From: Jiangella alba
GTDB lineage: Bacteria > Actinomycetota > Actinomycetes > Jiangellales > Jiangellaceae
Direction of reading: 5' to 3'
Length of the DNA: 64,000 nucleotides
NCBI RefSeq assembly: GCF_900106035.1
Contig: NZ_FNUC01000003.1
Location: 2,969,501 to 3,033,500, forward strand
The notes under the pieces were generated by a model. The model had not been told where the DNA came from. It was given only the letters and a program-made list of their open reading frames with translations, and searched no databases. Positions 17,589-20,932 of this stretch are shown one piece after another. The position numbers and the translations under genes are program-made. The first letter of the stretch is position 1. Every line of letters begins with the position of its first letter.

Positions 17589-20500
17589 TCACCGGCCGAC
17601 GGCGCTGCGGGCGGCGGCGCGGACCAGTGCGCCGTGCTCGCGGCTCTCGATCACGCCCTCGGCCAGCAGCCGGTCGGCCACCGCCCCGACGTGTCTGACG
17701 AACGCTCCGTGGTCGTCCCACGCGCGCTCGTCGGCGATGCGGTCGTTGATCGAGCAGCCGCCGCCGGCCGCGCGGTTCGGCAGCCCGCTGTCGACGCCGC
17801 CGATCACCACCGTCTCCCGGCCGTCCGTCTCCGGACAGGTCACCTCGACCGCGACGGTCGCGGTGCGGGTCTGGGTCCGGTCCGCGACGGTGAGAGTCAC
17901 GTCGAACGTGCCACCCACGTCGAACAGATGCGACCCGGTGACGTCGTGCCCGGCCGCGACCTCGGTCACCACGCCGGGCGACCCACCCGTGCCGTCGCCC
18001 CAGTCGATGCTCGCGGTCAGCGACGCGCCGGGGTTCCCCCACCCGCCGGTGACGCCGGCGAGCACGTCGCCGAACTCCTCGCCGACGGCGGCGGTGACCC
18101 CGGTCGCGGGCGTGACCTCGAGGTTCAGCTCGGGATCGCGGTAGTCCGCGAGCTCGGTGAAGATGCCGTAGAGCGTCCGGGCCGGAACGTCGTACGCCAG
18201 CGTCATGAACACGCCGGGCTCGATCTCGACGCTGGACGGGTTGGCCTGGTCGCCGTGCCCGGAATCGTAGATCGGTATCTGGTGGTGCCCGCTCCAGTCG
18301 CCGCTGGCGTCCGGGACGAGCACCCCGCCGGTCGGCCGGTTCGCCACCCCGGCGATCCCGTAGGTGACCAGCACGCTCCCGTCGTCGAGCAGCAGCTGGT
18401 CGTGCGAGGACGCCGGGATGTCGGACGGTTCGGCGGGGGTCCAGGTGTACCCGTTGTCGAACGACCGGGACACGTACAGCACCTGCGGGTTCGAGGTGGC
18501 CCGCAGGCCCGCCACGATCTCGCCGCTGGGCAGCACGGTCAGGTTGGGCTCCTGGAAGTGGATGCGGTCGTCCACCGCGATGGTGACCTCGTCGTCGCCC
18601 TCCCAGGTCAGGCCGCCGTCGGTGCTGCGCACCACGGTGGCCCGCTGAGACGGAGCGGAGGACACCGAGCTCAGCAGGATCCAGTAGGCGTTGCCGGTGC
18701 CTCCGGCGGCGGTGTCGCCCTGGATGCCGAAGGTGAACCCGTTCGCGAACCGCTCCGGCGCGAAGGTGAAGCTGAGGTGCTTCTCGTCGGACGCGGGGTG
18801 CGGGCACGTCAGCGACGTGATCTGGGTGCTGCTGTCGTCGAGGAGCCGGACCGCACGGTTGTCCGTCCCGGCGTCGCCGAACGGCGCACCGGTCACCTCG
18901 ACGTCGCCCCGGACGGCGCAGCCGGCCGGCGGCTCGCCGAGCGGTTCGTCGTCGAACGTCCGCACGTCGAGCTCGGCGGACGGCGGCGCCTGCGCTCCGA
19001 CCGCGAGGTCGTCGACGTAGAACTCCATGCCGGTCGGCGCCGTGCCGGCCGACGCGAACGTGACGTTGGTGAGGTTCACCGTGTCGTCGCGGCGCACGTC
19101 GGTGCTGAACGTCTCGTCGCCGACCGTGATCTCCAGGCTGGTGGCGGTCGCGTCCACCGACACCGGCTTCAACCGGCCGGGCGTGCCGAAGTCCTCGACG
19201 CGGCCGAGCGTCTGCCACCCGCTTCCGTCGTAGATGCGGACGTCGACGTCCTGACCGGCCGAGCCGGGCCTGACACCGTAGAGCGGGGCCAGCAGGTCGC
19301 CGTCGGCCAGTTCGACGATCGGGCCGTGGCTGGCGGACCAACCGTCCGCCGAGGCACAGCCCTCCGCCGGGGGCGGCTGCGCACAGCTCATCCGCGTGTC
19401 GAGCCAGATCGGGTCGCTCCAGGTCCGGCCGTCGTCCTCGGAGCGCACCACGTGGGTGCCCAGCTGCCGCGAGCCGGCCGGGTCCTCCCAGCTGGTGACG
19501 AAGTAGTCGAGCAGGATGGTGCCGTCGGAGAGCCGGGTCAGCTTCGGGTCGCGGTTGTCGAACCGGCCGGTCACGGCCGTGCGCGGCTCCGACCAGGTCG
19601 CGCCGTTGTCGTCGCTCTCGGTCACCCTGATCAGGCCCTGGGGGTCGACGTGCCCGACGCCCGAGTAGTAGGCGGCGAGCAGCCGGCCGTCGTCCAGCCG
19701 GATCACGGACGGGAAGCGCGGCGCCATGCCTTCGGGCTCGACCGCGACGACACTGCGCCGCTCGACCGCCACCGTCAGGGCCGACCGTCCGGACGTTCCG
19801 GCCGAGCCAGTGACGTCGACGACGACACTGTGCGGCCCGGTCTCCGAGTACGGATGCGAGCCGATGACGTCGAACCGGCCGGGCTGCCCGGATGCCTCGA
19901 CCGTCGCCGGCTCCGGGCCGGCGCCCCAGTCGACCGTCGCCTCGAACGTCTCGCCGGACGCCGCGCCGATCGGGCGGAAGCTCACCAGCCGGAAGGCGGG
20001 CGAGGGCTCCCCTTCGCTCACCGGGTTCACCCAGGACGCGATGTCCACGAACTGCAGCCCGACGGGGTCGTCGGTGAGCTCGGTCCCCACCGCCAGGTCG
20101 TCGAGGTAGAACTCCATGCCCACCGCGGATCGACCGGACGAGGAGAACACGACGGCGCCGAGGTTCACGGTGTCGTCACGGCGCAGGTCCGTGATGAACG
20201 TCGCGCCGGCGGCGGTGATCTGCGCGACGTGCATGGTGGCCGCCACCGTCACCTCGGTGAACTCACCCGGCGAGCTCAGTCCCTCGACCCGGCCCAGCTG
20301 GTTCCAGGCGGCGCCGTCGTACACCATGACGGTCGCGTCGTCGGTGCCGGCGATCGGGCTGATGCCGAACCACCACGCGTTCCCGGTGCCGCCCGCGGCC
20401 GTGTCGCCGCGGATGCCGAAGAGCAGCGGCCCGCCGTGGCGCTGCGGGTTGAACCCGAAGCTGACGTACCGCTCGCCGGAGTCCGGGTAGGCGCACGTCA

Positions 20501-20786
20501 TCGTCGTCGTCCCCGCATCGGTGTCGTCGATCAGGCGGACGGCCCGGTTGCCCGCGCCGGCAGCACCGAACGGCGCCTCGCCGACCACGACGTCACCGGT
20601 CGTCGCGCAGCCTTCGGGCGGCTCGCCGAGCTCCTCCCCGTCGAACGTTCGCACGTCGATCGCCGCGGCCGGGTCCACCTCTTCGGCCGCAGGCGCACCT
20701 GCCGCGACAGCCAGGGAGACGGTCGCCGCCGCCGTGAGGGCGGTCAAGCGGCGCGGCCATGATCGCCAACGGATCGGGCTGGACAT
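17589..20786 (-). CDS. Secreted exo-sialidase-like protein with nested duplicate module
   Basis: 1065 residues from ATG 20786, which has GGAGG 5 bases upstream; an ATG at 20798 is possible. A signal peptide ends near residue 34. Then come a beta-sandwich-like module in two halves (A and B), an Ig/PKD-like part, and a sialidase propeller of the BNR type. Four Asp boxes are visible (SDDNGATW, SEDDGRTW, STDGGLTW, SFDNGYTW), plus the Arg-containing PRFPSVI at the first blade. A copy of the first module interrupts the propeller between LLAPLYG and ATVVRSTDGG in the order B-then-A. A PKD-like domain (IDWGDGTGG) and a helical tail end the protein. Sialic-acid release from glycans is the likely role; the active site was not verified. 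Confidence 0.85.
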   Translation of the reverse strand: MSSPIRWRSWPRRLTALTAAATVSLAVAAGAPAAEEVDPAAAIDVRTFDGEELGEPPEGCATTGDVVVGEAPFGAAGAGNRAVRLIDDTDAGTTTMTCAYPDSGERYVSFGFNPQRHGGPLLFGIRGDTAAGGTGNAWWFGISPIAGTDDATVMVYDGAAWNQLGRVEGLSSPGEFTEVTVAATMHVAQITAAGATFITDLRRDDTVNLGAVVFSSSGRSAVGMEFYLDDLAVGTELTDDPVGLQFVDIASWVNPVSEGEPSPAFRLVSFRPIGAASGETFEATVDWGAGPEPATVEASGQPGRFDVIGSHPYSETGPHSVVVDVTGSAGTSGRSALTVAVERRSVVAVEPEGMAPRFPSVIRLDDGRLLAAYYSGVGHVDPQGLIRVTESDDNGATWSEPRTAVTGRFDNRDPKLTRLSDGTILLDYFVTSWEDPAGSRQLGTHVVRSEDDGRTWSDPIWLDTRMSCAQPPPAEGCASADGWSASHGPIVELADGDLLAPLYGVRPGSAGQDVDVRIYDGSGWQTLGRVEDFGTPGRLKPVSVDATATSLEITVGDETFSTDVRRDDTVNLTNVTFASAGTAPTGMEFYVDDLAVGAQAPPSAELDVRTFDDEPLGEPPAGCAVRGDVEVTGAPFGDAGTDNRAVRLLDDSSTQITSLTCPHPASDEKHLSFTFAPERFANGFTFGIQGDTAAGGTGNAYWILLSSVSSAPSQRATVVRSTDGGLTWEGDDEVTIAVDDRIHFQEPNLTVLPSGEIVAGLRATSNPQVLYVSRSFDNGYTWTPAEPSDIPASSHDQLLLDDGSVLVTYGIAGVANRPTGGVLVPDASGDWSGHHQIPIYDSGHGDQANPSSVEIEPGVFMTLAYDVPARTLYGIFTELADYRDPELNLEVTPATGVTAAVGEEFGDVLAGVTGGWGNPGASLTASIDWGDGTGGSPGVVTEVAAGHDVTGSHLFDVGGTFDVTLTVADRTQTRTATVAVEVTCPETDGRETVVIGGVDSGLPNRAAGGGCSINDRIADERAWDDHGAFVRHVGAVADRLLAEGVIESREHGALVRAAARSAVGR
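18651..19256 (-). repeat. Circularly permuted copy of the N-terminal module inside the sialidase propeller
   Basis: The N-terminal module (coding 20660-20079) reads half A then half B. A begins DVRTFDGEELGEPPEGC and ends GDTAAGGTGNAWW; B begins with a VYDG strand and ends GMEFYLDDLAVG. Here the order is B' first (19256-18990: RIYDGSGWQTLGRVE to GMEFYVDDLAVG), then A' (18977-18651: DVRTFDDEPLGEPPAGC to GDTAAGGTGNAYW). Similarity is evident by eye in both halves, so this is a duplicated module, permuted and inserted in a propeller loop. Confidence 0.8.
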
Positions 20787-20932
20787 GAGCACCTCCATGC
20801 AGTGGACGGGTGCTCAGAGCAGACATAAAAGATCATTCCATGTCAATGCCACATAACGCCCGGTGAGACCGGCTCCGACCGTGGGCGTCCGTCACCCGTG
20901 GCGCGCCGCTGTAGTCACCCTCTACAGTCGGT

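Follow-up and report, generated by a model that had tools for sequence, protein, structure and literature searches.

Can a domain be copied into its own protein chain with its two halves in circularly permuted order, and stand there as one complete extra domain inside another? This question is raised by a gene of Jiangella alba located at 17589-20786 on the minus strand of the window, i.e., the whole stretch of 64,000 nucleotides analysed here. In a preliminary description, the gene product was read as a sialidase whose propeller is invaded by a permuted copy of the protein's own N-terminal module. From the analyses reported here, we consider it very probable that a whole circularly permuted module was placed in a propeller loop, where it would be a probable binding wing and is likely to have come from a tandem duplicate.

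Gene and domain layout

The gene (17589-20786, minus strand, as are all features described in this section unless otherwise stated) is one uninterrupted open frame for a multi-domain protein of the sialidase fold, 1065 aa long when counted from MSSP; the longer numbering of 1069 aa starts from an ATG in the same frame at 20798. Residues are numbered here from the S that follows the first M of MSSP. The N terminus of the gene product is signal-peptide-like by eye, and the sialidase-shaped protein is probably secreted. An N-terminal module in the order A-B occupies residues 42-238 (20070-20660; full match to the module profile over 42-235) and is followed by a linker domain, Ig/PKD-like by eye, at residues 239-341 (19761-20069), which the alignment shows to be lacking in a relative from genome G013. 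The propeller, delimited by alignment and the predicted model, comes in two parts: residues 342-503 (19275-19760), the last of which are LLAPLYG, and residues 714-885 (18129-18644), which include the Asp boxes STDGGLTW and SFDNGYTW. Between them lies the inserted, circularly permuted module at residues 504-713 (18645-19274), as delimited by blastp, HMM and alignments.

The chain ends with a PKD domain (residues 919-982, 17838-18029), which matched PF18911 with 24.9 bits, below the curated cut-off of 27, and a C-terminal domain (about residues 983-1064, 17592-17837), which recurs in many proteins of the same and related genomes. These ~80 residues are present in many otherwise unlike large proteins, for example G000:C4:315326, with 58% identity over residues 977-1064. 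An antisense open frame of 1042 aa (window 17634-20762, plus strand) spans the whole gene and is most likely a by-product of the high G+C coding sequence.

Order of the module halves

When the insert was compared with the N-terminal module by blastp, both halves were recovered in exchanged order, i.e., A-B in the N-terminal module and B'-A' in the insert. The second half of the module, B', comes first (residues 504-598, 18990-19274) and matched B with 49% identity over 95 aa (E 5e-30); the first half, A', comes last (residues 606-709, 18657-18968) and matched A with 58% identity over 103 aa (E 4.5e-42). The short linker between them (residues 599-605, 18969-18989, from blastp and the junction alignment) joins what are the natural ends of the domain. 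The same order was obtained with a module profile (HMM) built from 24 unpermuted A-B copies only, with the inserts left out: on the window protein it gave a full match at 42-235, a second-half match at 504-597 and a first-half match at 606-723. The insert covers HMM positions 99/100-196 and then 2-119 of 198, which amounts to the whole module once; the two matched segments overlap in the hinge, a place at which propeller and module are indistinguishable. The inserts of the three genomes that carry one scored 204-212 bits, against a best score of 7.7 bits when the window insert was shuffled 1000 times.

The insert is 210 aa long compared with 193 aa for the module, and a few outer residues at each side may belong to the propeller loop, its boundaries being approximate. 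It is flanked by LLAPLYG (497-503) and by the third Asp box, STDGGLTW (720-727), within the downstream strand RATVVRSTDGG; the left flank can be read either as propeller loop (compare GTRPDS) or as module hinge. The exchanged order of the halves and the splitting of the propeller between LLAPLYG and STDGGLTW, both of which had been proposed in the preliminary description, were thus confirmed.

The module family

Module-bearing frames were scanned as a subset, 24 in number, of the module matches in the class sample of genomes described below. Each of them contains one A-B copy; B'-A' is additionally found in only three, and the other 21 have the single A-B copy only. Two frames taken up as permuted candidates, G008:C18 and G015:C142, were dropped, as they proved to carry ordinary C-terminal A-B modules. 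The module normally occurs once, at the N or the C terminus, on BNR-propeller proteins of Jiangella, and in several other BNR proteins of the genus a C-terminal A-B module stands behind a domain that was named F5/8-like by eye.

No Pfam family was matched by the module copy of the window protein, and on the 24 members Pfam gave scattered weak matches, each in at most three members. A sequence search of solved structures with the module returned no relative (best E 1.8). It is a unit of ~195 residues, predicted to be all-beta with 14 strands, and its fold is probably a concanavalin A-like jelly roll, as the predicted model suggests. The predicted strands, the weak scattered Pfam matches and the context point to a module that is probably carbohydrate-binding. 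Module matches of any kind were present in 11 of the 393 genomes of the class sample, all of them Jiangella (best seven or fewer candidates per genome); in a phylum sample of 386 genomes (best eight or fewer candidates per genome) they were found in the window's own genome, together with one marginal match (E 6.4e-4). These results indicate a domain family not represented in Pfam and, in the sampled genomes, almost restricted to Jiangella.

Recurrence of the insert and the empty site

Twenty-two genomes of the family, 12 of them of the genus Jiangella, were searched. The inserted form was found in three of the 12, i.e., the window genome, G012 and G014. G012 corresponds to J. muralis DSM 45357; L001 is the same assembly and was counted once, so that three independent genomes are concerned. 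The G012 and G014 proteins, with 89% and 90% identity to that of the window, have the same architecture and the same junctions, and the insert is 210 aa long in all three. In the class sample of 393 genomes (best seven or fewer candidates per genome), B'-A' appeared as one match in the same three only.

A misassembled or collapsed tandem repeat had been feared in the preliminary description, and repeated DNA within a GC-rich gene would be a natural source of such an artefact. However, the longer DNA blocks common to both copies are merely 78, 81 and 82% identical (one 35-nt block reaches 91%), the frame is open throughout, and identical junctions recur in three separate assemblies whose proteins are 89-90% identical to that of the window. 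The divergence of the copies and the recurrence exclude this explanation for all practical purposes.

The nearest relative, G013:C389 (611 aa), has propeller halves 67% and 70% identical to those of the window protein. In the alignment, its A-B module is followed directly by a propeller that runs uninterrupted through the site as LAPLYG-TTLGDPRQ-RATVV. The junctions in G012 and G014 and this empty site in G013 bear out the order of the domains in homologues. Since the copies have diverged, the architecture recurs and a related species has the empty site, a real evolutionary rearrangement rather than an assembly error is indicated. A more distant paralogue, also free of the insert, is present in at least 10 of the 12 Jiangella genomes. 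The G013 relative (L038 1609-3441) stops right after the propeller, with neither linker, PKD nor C-terminal domains; therefore, the gene has gained or lost several modules within one genus.

The orthology of the G013 gene rests on the tree described below; the flanking genes differ. The flanks in G013 and G012 have no orthologue-like genes in common with the window, and those in G013 gave a few family-level matches at 36-52%. When both flanks of the gene (17592-20813) were compared with L042 and L043, G012 had nothing in common with the window within about 5 kb, and G014 matched the window only in the block from 20936 on, with ~2.4 kb extra in between. The flanks differ among the three genomes, and the gene may be situated in a region that varies. 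A DNA-pattern scan of genome contigs led to J. muralis alone, while plasmids gave no relative at E 0.01 and viral contigs no confirmed relative; in all three collections, records near the window's own genome may be missing.

Age and parentage of the insert

Among 19 aligned propellers the insert is present in three and absent from 16. In the tree of these propellers, the three insert-bearing sequences form a clade (support 100) and the G013 sequence joins next (support 98). The insertion looks derived, since it is confined to a three-member clade next to G013 and lacking from the 16 other propellers, and it would have taken place on the branch leading to the three Jiangella species, after their gene had parted from that of G013.

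The parent copy is less evident. The window insert is identical to its own N-terminal module at 107 of 193 positions and to the G013 module at 109 of 193, and the pairwise identities among the three modules (55-60%) are close to a three-way tie. Parentage trees from A, B and both halves jointly conflict, with weak support (57, 73 and 40). As the three modules are about equidistant and these trees disagree, the duplication is dated to about the time at which the G013 gene split off. The expression "copy of its own N-terminal module" in the preliminary description is therefore appropriate for the domain family, but not for the exact parent. The near equidistance would also agree with an older insertion, one that predated the G013 split and was later lost from that gene. 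However, the insert is lacking in every one of the 16 other propellers, and the loss would need to have been clean at the loop; an older insertion is thus unlikely, and a derived one on the branch to the three species is preferred.

Predicted structure of the insert

AlphaFold2 was run on residues 342-885 with an input of 58 rows, comprising orthologues, uninterrupted propellers and separate A and B halves. The model had a pLDDT of 88.9 and a pTM of 0.74, and within the insert the values of ten-residue blocks ranged from 69 to 96. In VIA-align, it was matched to 5hx0_B with a Z of 41.1 and an rmsd of 2.3 over 326 residues, and to the sialidases listed below 5hx0_B with Z 34-35.5. Because the alignment with 5hx0_B spans model residues 1-538, the propeller is predicted to be complete and closed round the insert.

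The G013 protein, modelled from residue 32 (pLDDT 84.1), supplied the unpermuted module. When the insert was rotated, its strands agreed with those of the G013 N-terminal module at 178 of 193 positions, a comparison between two predicted models; among other circular shifts of the strand pattern the best value was 154 and the mean 95, and near the unrotated order the best was 107. The order of the halves by itself is no proof of joint folding, and B' and A' could be two separate half-domain insertions that fold separately or pair with other domains. However, B' and A' together make up about one module with the linker at its natural ends, and the model shows the full strand pattern with fair to good confidence in the blocks concerned, which leaves two half insertions as a very unlikely reading. 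Little co-evolution lies behind the predicted contact of B' with A', because the A and B rows of the input were separate fragments. On the predicted model, both halves form one domain. Sequence comparison, two further genomes, the empty-site relative and the structure prediction all support the nested, circularly permuted insertion that had been suggested for this protein.

Selective constraint

In three species pairs, the dN/dS of the insert was 0.21, 0.21 and 0.20 and that of the N-terminal module 0.47, 0.49 and 0.33, while the propeller parts gave 0.08-0.27, all by simple counting and with no error bars. These values show the insert to be conserved, and more strongly so than the N-terminal copy. 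Its rarity, with three genomes only, might suggest a decaying or neutral sequence with no role; such a reading has very little probability in view of dN/dS values of 0.20-0.21 and a length maintained at 210 aa in all three.

Proposed origin of the permutation

We infer that a hairpin loop of the propeller received a copy of the module in circularly permuted form. The polypeptide would enter the insert at strand 8 of the module, run to strand 14, pass through the short linker to strand 1 and leave after strand 7. In this way the natural ends would be joined, and the hairpin that connects strand 7 with strand 8 would provide the new ends. The propeller would have gained a complete additional domain, attached through two adjacent strands. 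The most likely origin is permutation by duplication, a model given in PMC3320104: from a tandem A-B-A-B, a central B-A segment of about one period would have been brought into the propeller loop. A cut from such a tandem fits, because the junction lies at the natural ends and the piece measures about one period. No tandem A-B-A-B intermediate was present among the 24 frames scanned.

In a one-step origin, circular DNA carrying the module would have undergone a single Campbell-like recombination with the propeller loop, by which the module would be permuted automatically. One event would then account for the B'-A' junction as well as for the presence of just one period, and the propeller strands at the site loosely resemble the hinge strands of the module; at first look, the strands flanking the site even ranked first and second in the G013 propeller. 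However, when hinge was scanned against site in an unbiased manner with all 24 modules, the ranks were 26, 8 and 12 (of 756, 695 and 697 clusters); nine representatives gave ranks of 45-58 among 703-745 clusters, and G013 alone gave 57-122 among 707-754. These low ranks do not constitute evidence, and the signature of a single crossover was dropped, the match being unremarkable. We regard the one-step origin as quite unlikely. An equally small chance is given to a broader reading, i.e., that a circular copy of coding DNA was integrated in a single step and that the permuted version, being under stronger constraint, is now the main binding wing. Permutation by duplication from a tandem remains the preferred origin.

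Fold, activity and possible role

The propeller has the six-bladed BNR fold, according to a match to PF13088 (E 4.3e-19) and to the structural matches of the predicted model to sialidases. For the sialidase PG_0352 of P. gingivalis, the catalytic residues named in PMC10553830 include the Tri-Arg R194, R398 and R460 and the acid/base D219. The Tri-Arg is present here as R356, R761 and R816, aligned with those three residues in that order and kept in 14, 19 and 17 of the 19 propellers, respectively. D380 and an Asp of the G013 protein align with D219, and Asp is found there in 6 of 19 propellers, while the Glu partner, E745, is found in 19 of 19. At the position of the Tyr nucleophile, mapped via the 5hx0 alignment alone, N occurs in 17 of 19 propellers (N848 here) and D in 2 of 19; N or D is thus read throughout the 19 Jiangella propellers (window 18129-19760, L038, L039, L019 and L006). 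We do not assign the protein to the GH33 sialidases, because the Tyr position reads N/D and its mapping comes from one alignment. To judge from these residues, the propellers may represent a sialidase-fold subfamily with another activity. The name sialidase used in the preliminary description is retained for the fold but not supported as stated for the activity, with the Tyr position N or D in every propeller.

As to its role, the insert would most likely serve as a second substrate-binding wing beside the propeller, held in place by two strands. If the V. cholerae sialidase is taken as a model, a second wing would give bivalent attachment to a secreted glycan-acting enzyme.

Comparison with known systems

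Lectin-like inserts in sialidases are known. The V. cholerae sialidase has one N-terminal jelly-roll domain and a second one inserted in its propeller, and bivalent attachment has been proposed for these dual lectin-like domains, which were reportedly described in Vibrio cholerae by Crennell in 1994. The Jiangella protein resembles this sialidase (1kit, which was among the Foldseek matches) in that a sialidase-type propeller is combined with an N-terminal and an inserted domain. The lectin insertion family PF09264 was absent among the Pfam matches of the whole protein up to E 1, and the V. cholerae insert presumably lies, to judge from residue numbers, in an earlier propeller loop than the Jiangella insert.

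The nearest solved propellers by sequence are 5hx0 (the uncharacterised Dfer_1899), which is nearest also by fold, and PG_0352 (8feb, 8gn6); in the alignments, the loop carries no insert in either. According to PMC10553830, PG_0352 has a CBM domain too, and it has the catalytic Tyr, whereas the Jiangella propellers have N or D there.

The nesting of a circularly permuted form of a known domain in an enzyme, as seen here, is already known from the aspartic proteinases of plants, whose plant-specific insert is called swaposin; permutation by duplication is the model put forward for it (PMC3320104). However, the unpermuted relative of swaposin is found in another protein, prosaposin, whereas both orders occur in one chain in Jiangella, where, also unlike swaposin, a beta propeller serves as host and a relative with the empty site is available. 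Circular permutation in a lectin fold of broadly this type is known from concanavalin A and favin (same source); that of concanavalin A is post-translational, while that of the Jiangella module is at the gene level. Searches of open literature, as covered by the titles and abstract openings listed, gave no mention of this protein or of any sialidase-type propeller in which a permuted module is nested. They likewise named no chain that holds one domain in both orders while a species of the same genus retains the empty site, and such a coexistence is not known to have been described.

Natural circular permutations usually come to notice as differences between distant proteins, when the event is long past. 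In Jiangella, a single genus offers the unpermuted sister module, the permuted copy and the empty-site relative, with identities of about 55-90%, and because all three states exist there, models for the origin and function of a permuted insertion are directly testable.
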